Below are positions 29,457 to 37,629 of a DNA stretch of 64,000 nt, in pieces. The notes below the pieces were generated by a model that did no database searches, was not told where the DNA came from, and saw only the letters and a program-made list of their open reading frames with translations. Numbering within the stretch: position 1 is the first letter of the stretch; every line of letters starts with the position of its first letter. The position numbers were made by a program, and so were the translations under genes. This stretch comes from Pseudomonas asplenii (GTDB taxonomy: Bacteria; Pseudomonadota; Gammaproteobacteria; Pseudomonadales; Pseudomonadaceae). The stretch spans positions 6,448,001 through 6,512,000 of the forward strand of contig NZ_LT629777.1 in the NCBI RefSeq assembly GCF_900105475.1, written 5' to 3'.

Positions 29457-30482
29457 TCAGTTGAAACCGCTGGTGGAAATGAAATCGACGTCGGTCTTCG
29501 GCTCGCCGCGCATCAGCAGGGCAATCACCTGCTCCAGCGTACGGCCCTCGAACAGGATCGCATGCAGGCCCGCCACCAGCGGCATGTAGACGCCCAGCTC
29601 CTGGGCCTTGGCCTTGAGCACCTTGAGGGTATTGACCCCTTCAGCCACTTCGCCGAGGCGGTTGACCGCTTCGTCAAGGCTCAGCCCCTGGCCCAGGGCG
29701 AAACCGACCTGGTAGTTGCGGCTCTTGGGCGAGGAACAGGTGACGATCAGGTCGCCGACCCCGGCCAGACCGAGAAAGGTCATCGGATTGGCGCCCTGGC
29801 TCACGGCAAACCGGGTCATCTCGGCCAGGGCCCGGGTAATCAGCATGCTCTTGGTGTTCTCGCCCATGCCGAGGGCCACCGCCATGCCGGCAATGATCGC
29901 ATAGACGTTCTTCAACGCCCCGCCCAGCTCGACGCCAAAGCGGTCGGCGCTGGCGTAGACCCGGAACGTGCTGCCGTGCAAGGCCGCCTGGACCCGGCTG
30001 CAGAGTTCCTCGTCCTCGCTGGCGACCACCGTGGCGGTCAAGGCATGCTCGGCCACTTCACGGGCCAGGTTCGGCCCGGACAACACGCCAATCCGCGCCT
30101 GCGGGGCGATGTCTGCAAGGATTTCACTCATCAGCTTGAAGGTCTGGGGCTCGATGCCTTTGGTCAGGCTCACCAGCAGCTTGCCCCGCAAGCGCTCGGC
30201 ATGATCAGCCAGCACGCTGCGCAGGGCACTGGATGGCAGGGCGACAAAGAACAACTCGCAGCCGTCGAGCGTGGCGGCCAGGTCAGTCACCGGCTCGACC
30301 GCCGGATTGATCTTGATTCCCTTGAGATAGCGCGGGTTCTCGCGATTGACACGAATGGCCTCGGCCTGTTCAGGGTCGCGCATCCATTGGCGCACCCGAT
30401 GACCGTTCTCGGCCAGCAGATTGGCCACGGCGGTTCCGAAGCTTCCGCCCCCCAGGACCGCAATAGGGTGCTGTTCAGTCAT
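29457..30482 (-). CDS. gpsA: Glycerol-3-phosphate dehydrogenase [NAD(P)+]
   Basis: 341 aa from the ATG at 30482; the ORF extends upstream, but protein homology begins at [20 protein letters not shown]. The dinucleotide-binding GGGSFG motif is at residues 12-17, the catalytic lysine is in [10 protein letters not shown] and the C-terminal domain ends [10 protein letters not shown]. The enzyme reduces dihydroxyacetone phosphate to sn-glycerol-3-phosphate for phospholipid synthesis. First gene of gpsA-DUF4389-sixA. The divergent TonB receptor gene starts 200 bp away. Confidence 0.96.
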
Positions 30483-30681: not shown

Positions 30682-32805
30682 GTGCATCCTGGCCCTCCCC
30701 CTCGCCGATCCTCCGTTCTCCTGGCACTGCTGTTCAGCACGCCCGTGCTGGGCGACGACCTGTTCCTGGAAAACCAGCCGCTGCCCGAGGTATTGACCGC
30801 GACACGGCTGAAACAATCCCCCGCGTCGGTGCCCGGCAGCATGACGGTCATCGACAACGAACTGATCAAGGCCAGCGGCGCCCGCGATATCGCCGAACTG
30901 CTGCGGCTGGTGCCGGGCATGATGGTCGGCTACACCAACGGCAACCAGGCGGCGATCAACTATCACGGTACCGATGCCGCCAATGCCCGACGCATGCAGG
31001 TGCTGATCGACGGGCGCTCGGTGTACCGGGCGGGCTTGGCGACGGTGGACTGGAGCGACATTCCGGTGGCCATGGAGGATATCGAGCGCATCGAGGTCTT
31101 CCGCGGACCGAACACCGTCAGCTATGGCGCCAACGCGCTGATGGCGGTGGTCAACATTCTCACCAAGTCGCCCGGCAGCACCCACGGCTCGCGGCTCAAG
31201 GTCACCCGTGGCGAACGCGGCATCAACGACTGGTACGCCAGCCAGGGCGTCGGCTGGGACACCGGCGACCTGCGTCTGTCGATGTCCGGCAAGCAGGACG
31301 ACGGTTTCGACAGCAACCGCGTCGGTGCCGACTACCGCGACAGCCGGCGGCTGAACCGCTTCAACCTGTCGGTCAGCCAGATGCTCGATGACAGCCAGAG
31401 CCTCGACTGGCAGTTGAACGCAAAGGAAGGCACCAACCAGCGACCGTACACCTACCAGGCGGTGTTCCCCAACATCCAGGAGGCCGGCGACAACTCCGAC
31501 GTGGTAGCCAAGGACTACGCCGCCTCCCTGCGCTGGAACCTCGACCTCAGCCCGCAGCACAGCCTGTATGTGCAGGGTTCGGCGCAGCACTGGGACCGCC
31601 AGCAGGTCTGGCGCGCCTGTGATGCCAAGGTGTCGTTCAGCCCGCAACTGACCCAGTTGTGGCAGCTCAACCCCAACTATGCGGAAAACCTGGCGCGTCA
31701 CATGACCAGCTATTCGGTGGGCAGCCCACCGGCCGGCAGTGCCACCGAGCAAGCCCTGGCCAACCAGGTGCTGGATCAATGGGGCAACGGCGGCAGTAAC
31801 ACCGTCTGCGGCGATATCGACCAGAGCACCCGCGAAACCCGCTATGACCTGGAAATCCAGGACACCCTGAGCCTGTCAGACAGCCTGCGTCTGGTCAGTG
31901 GCATGAACTATCGCTACGACCAGGCCAACTCCGAAACCTATTTCAACGGCACACTCGACGACAACACCTGGCGCCTGTTCGGCCAGCTCGAGTGGCGCGC
32001 CAGCGAGCATTGGCTGCTCCAGGGCGGCGCCATGTACGAATACACGCAACTGACCGACGACTCGCTGACCCCACGTTTTGCCGTCAACTACCTGATCAAC
32101 CCACGCCATGGCCTGCGCGCCGTGTATTCGGAAGCCATCCGCTCGCCGGACATGTTCGAGAACAACGTCAACTGGAGCTACCGGGTCACCAATCTGGATT
32201 CGCCGACCTACGGCCAGAACAGCGGCCAGTATTTCGTCAAGACCCGCGGCCCGGGCAACCTCGACAAGGAGCTGATGCGCTCGCGAGAGCTGGGCTACAA
32301 CGGTTTCTTCGCCGATATCGGACTGAATCTCGACGTAAAACTGTTCTACGACGAAATCACCTCGATGATCAGTTCGCCCCTGCGCAACAACCAGTACATC
32401 GCCAGCAATGCCAACAGCGCGCGCTTTCGCGGCAGCGAAACGCAGTTCGACTGGCGCGTGAGCAGCGCCGACCGGCTACGGCTGACCTACGCCTATGTCG
32501 ATGTGCAGGCGAGCAATAGCGCCGACGCCCAGTTCACCGCTCGCAACAGCGGCTCGGCCGGCTGGCTGCGTGACTGGGGCACGGGCTGGTCGAGTTCGCT
32601 GTTCTATTACGGTGACGACGCGATCAACCAGTACCGCTTCGAGCGGGTCGACCTGCGCATCGCCAAGCGCATTCCTCTGCGCAAAGCCAGCCTCGAACTG
32701 TCGGGAGTGATGCAGCAGCGCCTTGACGACCAGCCCATCACCTGGCCCGACAACAACTATGACCAGCGCCAGGTTCTCTACTTCAGCGCCGAGCTGGAAT
32801 TCTGA
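30682..32805 (+). CDS. TonB-dependent outer-membrane receptor
   Basis: 707 aa from a GTG start at 30682. A short signal peptide (about residues 1-24, ending PVLGDD) is followed by LPEVLTATR, which resembles a TonB box. The plug domain runs from about 45 to 160 (ELLRLVPGMMVGY, IEVFRGPNTVSYGANALMAV), then a 22-strand barrel ending in an aromatic residue (LYFSAELEF), as outer-membrane sorting requires. The substrate is not evident. It is 2 bp from the periplasmic binding protein gene and heads a three-gene operon with a hybrid kinase. The matching P. aeruginosa gene would be PA1613 (from memory). Confidence 0.92.
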   Translation: MHPGPPPRRSSVLLALLFSTPVLGDDLFLENQPLPEVLTATRLKQSPASVPGSMTVIDNELIKASGARDIAELLRLVPGMMVGYTNGNQAAINYHGTDAANARRMQVLIDGRSVYRAGLATVDWSDIPVAMEDIERIEVFRGPNTVSYGANALMAVVNILTKSPGSTHGSRLKVTRGERGINDWYASQGVGWDTGDLRLSMSGKQDDGFDSNRVGADYRDSRRLNRFNLSVSQMLDDSQSLDWQLNAKEGTNQRPYTYQAVFPNIQEAGDNSDVVAKDYAASLRWNLDLSPQHSLYVQGSAQHWDRQQVWRACDAKVSFSPQLTQLWQLNPNYAENLARHMTSYSVGSPPAGSATEQALANQVLDQWGNGGSNTVCGDIDQSTRETRYDLEIQDTLSLSDSLRLVSGMNYRYDQANSETYFNGTLDDNTWRLFGQLEWRASEHWLLQGGAMYEYTQLTDDSLTPRFAVNYLINPRHGLRAVYSEAIRSPDMFENNVNWSYRVTNLDSPTYGQNSGQYFVKTRGPGNLDKELMRSRELGYNGFFADIGLNLDVKLFYDEITSMISSPLRNNQYIASNANSARFRGSETQFDWRVSSADRLRLTYAYVDVQASNSADAQFTARNSGSAGWLRDWGTGWSSSLFYYGDDAINQYRFERVDLRIAKRIPLRKASLELSGVMQQRLDDQPITWPDNNYDQRQVLYFSAELEF

Positions 32806-32807
32806 GC

Positions 32808-33752
32808 ATGAACGAGAGTCGGTCAAGGATGACAAGGGCGTGCCGCGGCTGGCTGCCAAAGCTGATGGTTTGCCTGCTGGGCCTGCTGCTGGTCTCCCAA
32901 CCCCAGCAACAGGCCCGGGCCGCCGATGTGCTGCTCACAGGGGCTGAAGACAGCCCCGGCGTGCAGGGTTTCACCAGTGCCCTGGCTCGACAGCGACCCG
33001 AAGACCGGGTGCGCTTCGTGCCGTTCGGGCAATTGCCGGCGCCGGGCCAACTGCCAGCCGGCACGCGGCTGATTCTGCTCGACCCGCCCAGCCTCGACTG
33101 GCGCCTGTCGGACAGTCAGGGCCCGGCGACACTGGTGCTGCGTATCAGCCGCCTGCAAGCCCACCAACGCCTGGGCCAATCACTTCCCCATCAGCTCAGC
33201 CTGCTCTGGAGCGATCCGCCGCCGGCTCGGCAGTTGCGCCTGATACGGACCGTGCTGCCGCAGGTCCGGCGCGTCGGCGTGCTGTACGACGAGGACAGCG
33301 AGTTCCTGCTCGCCGAACTGCGCCAGGCCGCCCAGCCACTGGGTCTGGAAATCGTCGCCCAGCGCTGGGACAACACCGTCGACAGCCGGCCGCTGCAGGA
33401 CCTGCTGCGCAACAGCGATGTGTTGCTGGGGATCGACGATACGACCTTGTACAACCCCAAAACCGCGAAAAACCTGCTGCTCAGCAGCTATGCCCGACAA
33501 CTGGCACTGATCGGCCCCAATGCCGGCTTCGTCAAGGCTGGCAGCCTGGCCAGCAGTTACAGCGACCAGAACGACTGGCTGGTCGTCCTCGACAACCTGC
33601 TCGACCAGCCTCCTTCCAGTTGGCCGCGCACCCTTTATCCTTCCCGCTTCAAGGTCCTGAGCAACCCGCAGGTTGCTCGCTCGCTGAGCCTGGAGACGAT
33701 CGACGAAGCGTCCGTCGCCACCCAGTTGGCCGAAGGAGAACCGCATCCATGA
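32808..33752 (+). CDS. Orphan ABC-type periplasmic binding protein
   Basis: 314 aa. Signal peptide: basic N-terminus, then KLMVCLLGLLLVS, with cleavage near ARAAD (about residue 38). The mature part resembles the ABC_sub_bind (TrpX-like) fold: RRVGVLYDEDSEFLLAEL in one lobe, and DVLLGIDDTTLYNPKTAKNL and ALIGPNAGFVKAGSLASSYS in the other. No permease or ATPase gene is nearby. It overlaps the following kinase by 4 bp (ATGA) and follows the TonB receptor by 2 bp, so it probably delivers a ligand signal to the kinase rather than to a transporter. Confidence 0.85.
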   Translation: MNESRSRMTRACRGWLPKLMVCLLGLLLVSQPQQQARAADVLLTGAEDSPGVQGFTSALARQRPEDRVRFVPFGQLPAPGQLPAGTRLILLDPPSLDWRLSDSQGPATLVLRISRLQAHQRLGQSLPHQLSLLWSDPPPARQLRLIRTVLPQVRRVGVLYDEDSEFLLAELRQAAQPLGLEIVAQRWDNTVDSRPLQDLLRNSDVLLGIDDTTLYNPKTAKNLLLSSYARQLALIGPNAGFVKAGSLASSYSDQNDWLVVLDNLLDQPPSSWPRTLYPSRFKVLSNPQVARSLSLETIDEASVATQLAEGEPHP

Positions 33753-35644
33753 ATCTTCGCCGGCATTGGGGCATCAACGCCCGTACCCAGATGATCAGCC
33801 TCGGCCCGGCGCTGTTGCTGACCCTGCTGCTGATCAGTTTCTTCACCTTCGTGCGAATCCAGGACCTGCGCCAGGAACTCAACCACACCGGCCAACTGAT
33901 CGCCAACCAACTGGCGCCGGCCACGGAATACGGGGTCATTTCCGGTAACAGCGACGTGCTCGAAAGCCTGATGAAAGCCAGCCTGGCGACGCCTCATGTG
34001 CGTTTTCTCGAAGTCCAGGACCGGAGCAACAATATCCTGGTCTATGTCGAACAACCCGCCGAAAGCCAAAGCCGTACCCAGCAGGTCGAGATCTTCCAGG
34101 CTCCGGTACGCCTGCAGCGGATCAAGCTCGACAGCGATTTCCTGCAAGGCGCCTACGCCAACACGACTGCGACCGGCGAGGATTATCTGGGCCGCGTGAT
34201 CGTCGGCATGTCAAACGGTGCCTTCAACCAGCGCCAGCAGGAAATCCTGCTCAAGGCCGGGATCCTCGCACTGTTCGCCCTGCTCTTCACCTTCCTGCTC
34301 GCACGCCGCCTGGCGGCCAACCTGTCGCAGCCGATCAGCGCCATGGGCCATGCGGTAAAGGCTATCCAGCAAGGCGACTACAAGACCCCGCTGCCGGTGC
34401 CGGACGACACCGAACTGGGCGACCTGGCGCGGCACATCAACAACCTCGCCAGCGGCCTTGAACAAGCCAGCCGCGAGCAGCACCAGGCCATCGCGCAACT
34501 GATCCAGACCCGCGAAGAAGCGGAGCGGGCGAACAACGCCAAGTCCGACTTCCTGGCGATGATGAGCCACGAGTTGCGCACCCCGATGAACGGCGTACTG
34601 GGCATGCTGCAACTGCTCGAAACCACGGAAATGAGCGAGGAACAGGCCGAATACGCAGCACTGGCCTCGGAATCCACCGAACACCTGCTGAAGGTCATCA
34701 ATGACATCCTCGATTTCTCGCGAATCGAACGCTCGGCCCTGGAGCTGGAGCACATTCCGTTCGCCCTTGGCGAGTTGATCGGCAGTTGCGCCCAGGCATT
34801 CCAGCACAGCGCCGTACAGCGCGGCCTGCAGTTGAACCTGCGATTCCCGGCCGGACTGGAAAAGCTGCAGGTCAAGGGTGATCCGACACGCATCCGGCAG
34901 ATCCTGGTCAACCTGATCGGCAACGCGCTCAAGTTCACCGAACACGGCAGCGTGAGCATCGAGCCCGCCTGGCAGGTACTGGACGACGAATTGATCTGGT
35001 TCAGTTGCACCGTACGCGACAGTGGCATCGGCATTTCCGCCGAACGCCTGGAACTGATGTTCGATGCCTTCCAGCAGGCCGACAGTTCGATTTCCCGGCG
35101 TTATGGCGGCACCGGCCTCGGCCTGCCGATTGCCCGGACCCTGGCCGAACGCATGGGCGGTACCCTGCATGCACGCAGCGAAGAAGGCCAGGGTTCGGTG
35201 TTCACCCTGGAAATACCGCTGGCCCTGCAGTACCTGGCCGAACCGGAGGCTCTGCCGCAACTGCTGGCGAGCCATGGCAAGGGGCGCAAGGTCCTGCTGG
35301 TGGAAGACAACCCGGTGAACCAGACCGTGATCGAAGCGATGCTGCACAGCCTGGGCTTCGAAGTCAGCCTGGCGCACGATGGCATCGAGGCGGTCGAACA
35401 GGCGAGAAACGGCAGTTTCGCGGCGGTGCTGATGGACTGTCGGCTACCGCTCGTCGACGGCTATGAAGCCACCCGGCAGATCCGCCAACTGCCTGATAAC
35501 GCCCAGTTGCCGATCATCGCCCTGACCGCGAACGCCCTGCAAGGCGACCGCGAAGAATGCCTGCAGGCCGGTATGAACGATTACCTGGCCAAGCCCTTCA
35601 AACGCGCTGACCTGCAGCGGATTCTCCAGCGTTGGGTGCCTTGA
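33749..35644 (+). CDS. Hybrid sensor histidine kinase/response regulator (PA1611-like)
   Basis: 631 aa. Helices at about 16-36 and 168-186 flank a periplasmic domain; HAMP (about 188-240); HisKA with His274 (MMSHELRTPMNGVLG); HATPase (NLIGNALKFTEHG, DSGIGIS, GGTGLGLPIA); C-terminal receiver with Asp563 (VLMDCRLPLVDG). There is no Hpt domain, so an external phosphotransfer protein is needed. Position next to fabA corresponds to P. aeruginosa PA1611, which passes phosphate to HptB and interacts with RetS in the Gac/Rsm network. That ortholog call rests on synteny and layout recalled from memory. Confidence 0.88.
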   Translation: MNLRRHWGINARTQMISLGPALLLTLLLISFFTFVRIQDLRQELNHTGQLIANQLAPATEYGVISGNSDVLESLMKASLATPHVRFLEVQDRSNNILVYVEQPAESQSRTQQVEIFQAPVRLQRIKLDSDFLQGAYANTTATGEDYLGRVIVGMSNGAFNQRQQEILLKAGILALFALLFTFLLARRLAANLSQPISAMGHAVKAIQQGDYKTPLPVPDDTELGDLARHINNLASGLEQASREQHQAIAQLIQTREEAERANNAKSDFLAMMSHELRTPMNGVLGMLQLLETTEMSEEQAEYAALASESTEHLLKVINDILDFSRIERSALELEHIPFALGELIGSCAQAFQHSAVQRGLQLNLRFPAGLEKLQVKGDPTRIRQILVNLIGNALKFTEHGSVSIEPAWQVLDDELIWFSCTVRDSGIGISAERLELMFDAFQQADSSISRRYGGTGLGLPIARTLAERMGGTLHARSEEGQGSVFTLEIPLALQYLAEPEALPQLLASHGKGRKVLLVEDNPVNQTVIEAMLHSLGFEVSLAHDGIEAVEQARNGSFAAVLMDCRLPLVDGYEATRQIRQLPDNAQLPIIALTANALQGDREECLQAGMNDYLAKPFKRADLQRILQRWVP

Positions 35645-35731
35645 ATGCCACGTGCGACTGGCGTGAAAGACGAAAGTGCGGCAGTCTTAGGCACCCAAAC
35701 AAGCCGTGAAACCGGCTTGATTTATAATTTC

Positions 35732-35749
35732 AGTGCACAAGTGTACATT
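35732..35749. promoter_or_regulatory. Operator-like inverted repeat upstream of fabA
   Basis: AGTGCACAAGTGTACATT is an imperfect palindrome: 8-bp arms matching at 6 of 8 positions around a central AG. Its pattern (A-TG-ACA ... TGT-CA-T) resembles the TetR-type FabR/DesT operators that control unsaturated fatty acid genes in E. coli and P. aeruginosa. It lies about 130 bp before the fabA start. The assignment is inference from motif shape and location. Confidence 0.5.
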
Positions 35750-35881
35750 CATGTCCCGTGTGCTGTGACTTTCACTACAACGCAATAGTCTATGTGTAGG
35801 CTGTCGATTCGAGGCATGAGGGCTTCGATCGGCCGGGAAGAGTCAGTCCCCCCTGCCGCATGTAACTATTGAGGAGCTCGC

Positions 35882-36397
35882 ATGACCAAACAAAACGCCT
35901 TTACCCGGGAAGATCTGCTGCGCTGCAGTCGCGGTGAGCTGTTCGGCCCAGGTAACGCGCAACTGCCCGCCCCGAACATGCTGATGGTGGATCGCATCAC
36001 CCATATCAGCGAAGAGGGTGGCAAGTACGGCAAAGGTGAATTGGTCGCCGAACTGGATATCACCCCGGACCTGTGGTTCTTCGCCTGCCACTTCGAAGGC
36101 GATCCGGTGATGCCAGGCTGCCTGGGCCTCGATGCCATGTGGCAACTGGTCGGCTTCTTCCTCGGCTGGCAAGGTCTGCCGGGCCGTGGCCGTGCGCTGG
36201 GTTCGGGCGAAGTGAAATTCTTCGGCCAGGTCCTGCCAACCGCCAAGAAAGTCACCTATAACATCCATATCAAGCGCGTCCTCAAAGGCAAGCTGAACCT
36301 GGCCATCGCCGACGGTTCGGTCAGTGTCGACGGCCGCGAAATCTACACCGCCGAAGCCCTTCGGGTCGGCGTGTTCACCTCCACTGACAACTTCTAA
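35882..36397 (+). CDS. fabA: 3-hydroxydecanoyl-ACP dehydratase/isomerase
   Basis: 171 aa, exactly the FabA length. Active-site His70 (FACHFEGDP) and Asp84 ([12 protein letters not shown]) are at the canonical positions. It dehydrates 3-hydroxydecanoyl-ACP and isomerises the trans-2 to the cis-3 product, starting unsaturated fatty acid synthesis. GAGGAG just upstream of the ATG is the ribosome-binding site. It is 11 bp from fabB, forming the classical fabAB operon. Confidence 0.98.
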
Positions 36398-36408
36398 GGG
36401 TTATCCGC

Positions 36409-37629
36409 ATGCGCCGCGTCGTTATCACTGGTCTGGGCATCGTTTCTTGCCTGGGCAATGACAAAGAGACCGTCTCCGCTAACCTGCGTGCAAGCCGCCC
36501 TGGCATCCGCTTCAACCCGGAATATGCCGAAATGGGTCTGCGTAGCCAGGTTTCCGGCTCCATCGACCTCAACCTCGAAGAACTGATCGACCGCAAGATC
36601 TATCGTTTCGTCGGCCACGCGGCGGCCTACGCCTACCTGGCCATGAAAGACGCGATCAGCGATTCCGGCCTGACCGAAGAGCAGGTGTCCAACCCGCGTA
36701 CCGGCCTGATCGCCGGTTCCGGCGGTGCTTCGACCCTGAACCAGATGGAAGCGCTGGATACCCTGCGCGAAAAAGGCGTCAAGCGTGTGGGTCCATACCG
36801 CGTGACCCGCACCATGGGCAGCACCGTTTCGGCGTGCCTGGCCACTCCGTTCAAGATCAAGGGCCTGAACTACTCGATCTCCTCCGCCTGCGCCACCAGT
36901 GCCCACTGCATCGGTACCGCCATGGAGCAGATCCAGATGGGCAAGCAGGACATCGTCTTCGCCGGTGGCGGTGAAGAAGAGCACTGGAGCCAGTCGTTCC
37001 TGTTCGACGCCATGGGCGCGCTGTCCACCCAGTACAACGACACGCCGCAGAAAGCCTCGCGTGCCTACGATGCCAAGCGTGACGGTTTCGTCATCGCTGG
37101 CGGTGGCGGCATGGTGGTGGTCGAGGAACTGGAACACGCTCTGGCCCGTGGCGCGAAGATCTATGCCGAAATCGTCGGCTACGGCGCGACCTCCGATGGC
37201 TACGACATGGTTGCCCCAAGCGGCGAAGGTGCCGTGCGCTGCATGCGGATGGCAATGTCCACCGTTGACGGCCCGATCGACTACCTGAACACCCACGGCA
37301 CCTCGACTCCGGTCGGCGACGTCGCGGAAATGAAAGGCGTACGTGAAGTCTTCGGCGACAAGGCTCCGGCCATCAGTTCGACCAAGAGCCTGTCCGGTCA
37401 CTCCCTGGGTGCTGCCGGCGTGCACGAGGCGATCTACTGCCTGCTGATGATGGAAGGCAACTTCATTGCCGGTTCCGCCAACATCGACGAGCTGGATCCG
37501 GAAGTCGCCGACATGCCGGTCCAGACCCAGACTCGCGAAAACGTGCAACTGAACAACGTGATGAGCAACAGCTTCGGCTTCGGTGGCACCAACGCTACCC
37601 TGGTGCTGAAGCGCTGGCAGGGCAAGTAA
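36409..37629 (+). CDS. fabB: Beta-ketoacyl-ACP synthase I
   Basis: 406 aa. Active-site Cys161 ([11 protein letters not shown]) and the two catalytic histidines in [11 protein letters not shown] and [12 protein letters not shown] are present. It elongates the cis-3-decenoyl-ACP made by FabA. It is followed 22 bp later by a strong terminator. Confidence 0.98.

Follow-up and report, generated by a model that had tools for sequence, protein, structure and literature searches.

The window analysed here, a stretch of 64,000 nucleotides from the Pseudomonas asplenii chromosome (NCBI RefSeq assembly GCF_900105475.1, contig NZ_LT629777.1, positions 6,448,001 to 6,512,000 of the forward strand), carries three consecutive genes on the + strand that encode a TonB-dependent receptor (TBDR), an orphan periplasmic substrate-binding protein (SBP) and a hybrid histidine kinase. 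A search for close relatives identified the chromosome as Pseudomonas near P. fuscovaginae and P. gingeri. The TBDR gene (30682..32805) has a GTG start at 30682 and a TGA stop at 32803-32805, the SBP gene (32808..33752) an ATG start at 32808 and a TGA stop at 33750-33752, and the kinase gene (33749..35644) an ATG start at 33749 and a TGA stop at 35642-35644. Direct reading of the sequence gives a gap of 2 bp between TBDR and SBP and an overlap of 4 bp (ATGA) between SBP and kinase, confirming the order and spacing given in a preliminary description of this DNA. The trio sits between the divergent gpsA and fabA-fabB. None of the ten flanking genes (seven upstream and three downstream, assigned by Pfam) encodes a transporter permease or ATPase, and the earlier remark that no transporter gene is present thus holds over that range, the flanks of the trio in this window being what the Pfam run covered.

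The TBDR (707 amino acids) matches the Plug and TonB barrel domains of Pfam, which gave no match to the signalling domain STN. Its best NCBIfam match is NF053590, the TOL_0244 family of TonB-dependent receptors, of which it is a relative rather than a member (161 bits, the cut-off being 645); the same family is the best NCBIfam match of three distant partner TBDRs. Comparison of N-termini by eye revealed the TonB-box-like motif PEVLTAT (30784..30804), and similar forms (PEVLTxx, PVVLTxx and looser ones) occur at the equivalent position in many of the module's distant TBDRs. As this TBDR adjoins a regulator, one could imagine cell-surface signalling of the FecA/FpvA type through its N-terminus. 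We rejected this explanation as highly improbable, given that STN is absent and that no anti-sigma or extracytoplasmic function (ECF) sigma gene was found by Pfam among the ten flanking genes.

The SBP (314 amino acids, with a Sec-type N-terminus by eye) resembles type I SBPs. Its match to PF04392 (ABC_sub_bind) is weak (20.7 bits, below the cut-off of 25.9), and three distant partner SBPs gave 49.8 bits, 22.8 bits and no match to this family. Profile and fold comparisons place TrpX (3lft), 3lkv and CD0873 (6hni/6hnj) among the solved structures closest to it, although identity in the fold alignments is low (16-17%). Foldseek also ranked type I SBPs first, despite the low confidence of the AlphaFold model used as query. 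The structure title of 3lft names L-Trp as its content, and CD0873 and 3lkv bind tyrosine and phenylalanine, respectively. These aromatic amino acids provide a lead for the ligand of the SBP, by analogy only, and the presence of a dedicated TBDR hints at a ligand that is bigger or less abundant than free amino acids. TrpX belongs to an ATP-binding cassette (ABC) importer. The marks of such an importer are missing here: no permease or ATPase gene is adjacent among the ten flanking genes, and the PF04392 score lies below the cut-off.

The kinase (631 amino acids) has the Pfam architecture sCache_4-HAMP-HisKA-HATPase_c-Response_reg. Its periplasmic sensor region covers residues 35-162 (33851..34234; bounds set by eye), with sCache_4 at residues 36-101, and is followed by HAMP (34310..34465), HisKA (34538..34729) with the phospho-acceptor His274 in SHELRTP, HATPase_c (34877..35224) and a receiver domain (35291..35626) with the phospho-acceptor Asp563, equivalent to Asp565 of PA1611. 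A search with PF01627 over the whole genome of the strain found 15 places, none of them at the kinase, in agreement with the earlier claim that it lacks an Hpt domain. The kinase is the ortholog of PA1611, as its locus (gpsA/fabA-fabB) and its receiver sequence indicate, and the assignment first made from position is thereby upheld. The best PDB match of the receiver is the crystallized PA1611 receiver (7c1j). In P. aeruginosa, gpsA is the other neighbour of PA1611. In a passage of a fabAB study, PA1611 adjoins fabA and PA1612-PA1611 is called an operon (PMC3462791). PA1611 thus shares with our kinase the fabA neighbourhood, the domain order and most HptB-contact residues: among the 18 visible in Table 3 of PMC7467158, 16 are identical, and V570 and N605 are replaced by L568 and E603. 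That paper counts 20 contact residues, and its PA1611-HptB interface is a docking model.

Genes encoding STAS, REC-SpoIIE and Hpt proteins lie side by side in the same genome, as expected for hsbA-hsbR-hptB. The earlier proposal that the kinase feeds HptB and the Gac/Rsm switch therefore gained ground on its HptB side. The statement that the ligand of this branch is undefined agrees with a review table, where the PA1611 signal is entered as ‘Unknown’ (PMC5812489), and the literature passages on PA1611 that we consulted name neither PA1612 nor PA1613 as an input. Among the genomes searched, the nearest to P. aeruginosa by receiver (96% identical; G241) carries TBDR (3790021-3792093), SBP (3792127-3793020) and kinase (3793026-3794918), all on the + strand. 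Together with a passage naming PA1613 in a paper on proteins for iron acquisition (PMC9864456), this suggests that the SBP corresponds to PA1612 and the TBDR to PA1613.

We explored the distribution of the trio at several taxonomic scales. Among 119 Pseudomonas genomes, the kinase is present in 118, the SBP in 88 (87 intact genes and one remnant, in G060) and the TBDR in 82, with strict nesting: every genome with a TBDR has an SBP, every genome with an SBP has a kinase, and none has a TBDR without an SBP. Only G041 gave no kinase match at the chosen threshold. Five genomes have an intact SBP and no TBDR match (G001, G022, G092, G107 and G050); TBDR fragments remain in G107, and the locus of G050 ends at a contig end. 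In the 31 genomes that keep the kinase without an intact SBP, gpsA lies directly upstream of the kinase, or of the decayed SBP in G060. A GpsA match was obtained upstream in 35 of the 36 loci L055-L090, the exception being a contig end of 2 kb. Among named genomes, the search for close relatives retrieved 18 loci, all from Pseudomonas. In each of them gpsA comes first, then the SBP and then the kinase; 17 have the TBDR and 17 have fabA (L100 ends before fabA). Adjacency of SBP and kinase was checked by script in the 60 SBP-positive loci of the rate tests described below and read from coordinates in the other genus and family genomes. In the family sample (158 genomes), the kinase was found in 110 and the SBP in 74; outside the genus, a TBDR match accompanied the SBP in 61 of 62 genomes (the miss being G122) and occurred in none of the eight SBP-negative genomes tested.

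The order sample comprised 293 genomes, 97 of them with an SBP match. Of the 89 outside the family, 88 were fetched (all except G513) and yielded 90 loci; with one family locus, this makes 91. TBDR and kinase lie nearby on the same strand in 69 of these, the kinase alone in five, the TBDR alone in 11 and neither in six, seven of the 91 being at contig ends. Counted over the 90 order loci, all three genes are on one strand in 68, four of which have the TBDR moved downstream. The gene order is altered to SBP-kinase-TBDR in L195 and L199 and to SBP-TBDR-kinase in L202. None of the 90 fetched stretches contains a GpsA or FabA match, which shows that the trio is not tied to the place it occupies in Pseudomonas. 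This bears on the idea that the three genes stay together by mere synteny inertia beside gpsA and fabA, with no functional link. The idea finds some support in that gpsA also precedes the kinase in SBP-negative genomes and that the trio lies between gpsA and fabA in the named SBP-positive ones. It is nevertheless largely refuted by the order-wide recurrence away from these genes and by the changed gene orders, and we rejected it, its probability being very small.

The class sample comprised 274 genomes, with an SBP match in 62. Forty of the 71 listed places were fetched, most of them among the stronger matches, and the counts therefore lean towards close relatives: 28 have a TBDR and a match to the kinase profile, 10 a kinase-profile match without TBDR, and two a TBDR without kinase-profile match. 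In two of the 28, a protein with the Pfam architecture sCache_4-HAMP-PAS-GGDEF-EAL stands in the place of the kinase (L347, 3430-5913; L363, 7175-9658); as judged from domain content, these loci combine the same input with another output. The linkage of the three genes, found together in 82 of the 119 genus genomes, is far beyond chance and no local accident, and the association of SBP and TBDR with a PA1611-type kinase, first noticed in a single genome, recurs well beyond Pseudomonas. In the titles and abstract beginnings of the open-licence PMC literature that we searched, we did not find the three genes treated as one sensing unit.

To what extent does the kinase differ with and without its neighbour? 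The rate tests used 60 of the 87 kinases with an intact SBP (SBP-positive) and 30 of the 31 without (SBP-negative; G080 was without a locus) from the genus, with a reference tree, roots and loss counts based on the kinase core, receiver and FabA. One sequence counted as SBP-positive, L250 (G050), lies at a contig start with its kinase cut and is the sole SBP-positive sequence scored with a gap. When branch lengths are summed for each domain, the ratio of periplasmic domain to catalytic core is 3.86 on SBP-negative branches against 1.04 on SBP-positive ones, a 3.7-fold faster evolution of the sensor relative to the core, whereas the ratio of receiver to catalytic core is 0.79 against 0.91. For the terminal branches that passed the length filter (26 of 30 SBP-negative and 38 of 60 SBP-positive), the median ratios are 2.94 and 0.69, respectively (p about 1e-6, kinship ignored). 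Maximal clades gave medians of 3.35 (9 of 10 SBP-negative clades) and 1.01 (8 of 9 SBP-positive clades; p = 0.02), with L211 (SBP-negative) and L261 (SBP-positive) dropping out for too short a branch. A tree of the kinase only, with 123 sequences of which 90 were shared with the main test, yielded ratios of 4.04 and 1.90.

In pairs matched for catalytic divergence, the excess of mismatches in SBP-negative kinases tops at residues 62-70 (33932..33958) and 122-133 (34112..34147), with lesser peaks near 96-101 and 204, the corresponding ratios for the core and the receiver being 1.05 and 1.01. The segment 122-133 (L..I.L..DF..) is a candidate SBP-docking loop. Within the genus, F131 is found in 60 of 60 SBP-positive kinases against 5 of 30 SBP-negative ones, the pair [DE]130-F131 in 60 of 60 against 3 of 30 (L205, L210 and L216), and 17 of the 30 SBP-negative kinases have gaps in this segment. 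It follows the SBP rather than the TBDR, since it is kept in L235, L248 and L262, where the SBP is present and the TBDR match missing, and also in G060 (L216), with its SBP remnant. The absence of the SBP thus comes with a changed kinase, whose input domain is faster-evolving and whose output is not; these rates may reflect either relaxation or adaptive retuning of the sensor. The wide distribution of the trio and the remnants in G060 and G107 point to loss, rather than gain, as the direction of change.

Taken together, these data lead us to consider it probable that the kinase has the ligand-carrying SBP as its co-receptor and that a TBDR of its own supplies this SBP, the three proteins forming a sensing module that would span three compartments. 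The TBDR would import a ligand across the outer membrane, and the SBP, without a transporter at its locus, would capture it in the periplasm and dock on the Cache domain of the kinase, modulating it by contact, most likely through the segment around residues 122-133. HAMP, HisKA and receiver would then relay the state of the sensor to HptB (HsbR/HsbA) and also, as in P. aeruginosa, to RetS/GacS. The passage of the ligand, its identity, the direct contact between SBP and kinase and the sign of the signal are what we infer. A constant output with a swappable input would fit the GGDEF-EAL variants as well as a receiver that stays unchanged when the SBP is lost. The interpretation offered in the preliminary description is thus partly supported: its outline stands and its details are corrected.

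Several observations weigh against the co-receptor model. Of the 118 Pseudomonas genomes with the kinase, 31 lack an intact SBP and 36 a TBDR match, and all 18 genomes drawn from the genus g12 keep the kinase without SBP; kinases persisting without both partners in many genomes imply that the kinase output does not need them. Genomes with a conserved kinase and commonly absent partners had been named beforehand as the case that would refute the proposal. They exist, which counts against a strict version of it, but their kinases show a changed periplasmic domain. The clade-level test is modest, some SBP-positive lineages of the wider tree have high ratios (L259, 8.7; L261, 6.4; L172, 5.4), and the SBP-negative L207 has a low one (0.12). 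Branch rates of the SBP correlate with those of the catalytic core (partial rho 0.50) as well as with those of the periplasmic domain (0.46), and rate coevolution, not being domain-specific, was dropped as an argument. L205 and L210 keep the [DE]F pair without an SBP. In other genera, only two of the eight SBP-positive kinases examined have this pair; as it fades outside the genus, the docking proposal is strongest inside Pseudomonas. The AlphaFold models are weak (pLDDT 62.8 and 61.1, from shallow alignments of 18 and 17 sequences). Finally, 11 of the 91 loci have TBDR and SBP with no kinase nearby (two at contig ends, eight in the genus g44), and in two class-level genomes (L367 and L371) the order is TBDR-SBP-trmO-fabA, then a fabB-like gene, with no kinase, which hints at an ancient connection between the cassette and the fabAB region. 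A GGDEF output initially considered in these two loci proved to be a false motif match and was rejected: the open reading frames start like FabB and lie behind fabA (FabA match in both) and trmO (Pfam, in L367).

The 11 kinase-less loci among the 91 suit an alternative in which TBDR and SBP are a nutrient-uptake pair serving an unlinked inner-membrane permease, with the kinase merely sharing the operon, all the more so as relatives of PF04392 are usually parts of ABC importers. However, besides the lack of a transporter among the ten flanking genes, it is the sensor domain, and not the catalytic core or the receiver, that changes with SBP loss, and the GGDEF-EAL substitutes retain the Cache-HAMP input. 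We thus regard the uptake pair as rather improbable. Alternatively, the Cache domain could bind the ligand itself, TBDR and SBP only raising its periplasmic concentration, so that their loss would alter the supply and the sensor would drift or be retuned. In GacS-type kinases, sCache_4 serves as a ligand-binding fold, and the divergence peak at residues 62-70 lies inside the Pfam match to it. By contrast, the strongest signal, at residues 122-133, falls outside this match, and in three lineages it goes with the SBP and not with the TBDR. This alternative seems unlikely to us, if less so than the uptake pair.

The co-receptor model has precedents. TorT-TorS, LuxP-LuxQ and ChvE-VirA are SBP-assisted kinases in which, as in our window, a periplasmic SBP without transporter stands beside a membrane (hybrid) kinase; the window shows the same two features, an SBP gene next to a kinase gene and no transporter among the flanking genes. 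Their SBP families differ from ours, and the sensor of our kinase is sCache_4. To our knowledge, no dedicated TBDR is encoded in the operon of any of the three. In Vibrio, NspS-MbaA couples an SBP of another family with a GGDEF-EAL receptor, like the L347 and L363 variants, but is not known to include a TBDR. The trio would thus be a new variant of SBP-assisted sensing, of which LuxP-LuxQ is described as an example in a passage of PMC12189002.

PA1611 sits in the switch between the motile and the biofilm life of pseudomonads, its signal is listed as unknown, and the trio offers a candidate input, directly testable now that it has been narrowed to two genes and 12 residues of the kinase. The same cassette occurs in numerous other Gammaproteobacteria, where its output is a kinase or, at two loci, a GGDEF-EAL protein. 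It is tempting to speculate, although we would put this at somewhat less than an even chance, that it is a widespread gammaproteobacterial cassette whose TBDR serves sensing instead of nutrition, importing a single signal molecule for an SBP docking on the Cache-HAMP receptor of a hybrid kinase or GGDEF-EAL protein, and that PA1613-PA1612 is the missing input arm of PA1611.

Some loci depart from the usual composition. No receiver was detected in the kinase of five of the 69 loci with all three genes (L184, L188, L195, L272 and L297), L195 having only the ATPase domain by Pfam. Two SBP genes per locus were seen in L176, L264, L267 and L274, and two TBDR genes in L194. In the genus g18 (12 genomes, represented by L171), the trio kinase is non-hybrid and ends before the receiver, with frames of about 490-530 amino acids; in one of these genomes (G160) stops fall within the matched range of the kinase. 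In g44, the kinase-less TBDR-SBP pair of L324 and its relatives lies downstream of an open reading frame that resembles, by eye, a prephenate dehydratase.

The ten genes flanking the trio in the window encode hydrolases, a thioesterase, a pentapeptide protein, a phosphatase-like protein, a DUF4389 protein, GpsA, FabA, FabB and OsmC. gpsA (29457..30482, - strand) has its start set by eye at the methionine of MTEQ, 199 bp from the TBDR start. PADLOC gave two weak matches, to the kinase only. Downstream, fabA (35882..36397, + strand), assigned by Pfam and synteny, is followed by fabB (36409-37629). The interval between kinase and fabA (35645-35881) includes a terminator-like hairpin of seven pairs (35700..35719, + strand), such hairpins being no more frequent than the regional chance rate (four sites found against 5.0 expected). 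In P. aeruginosa, according to PMC3462791, the corresponding interval holds a 30-bp fabA regulatory element.

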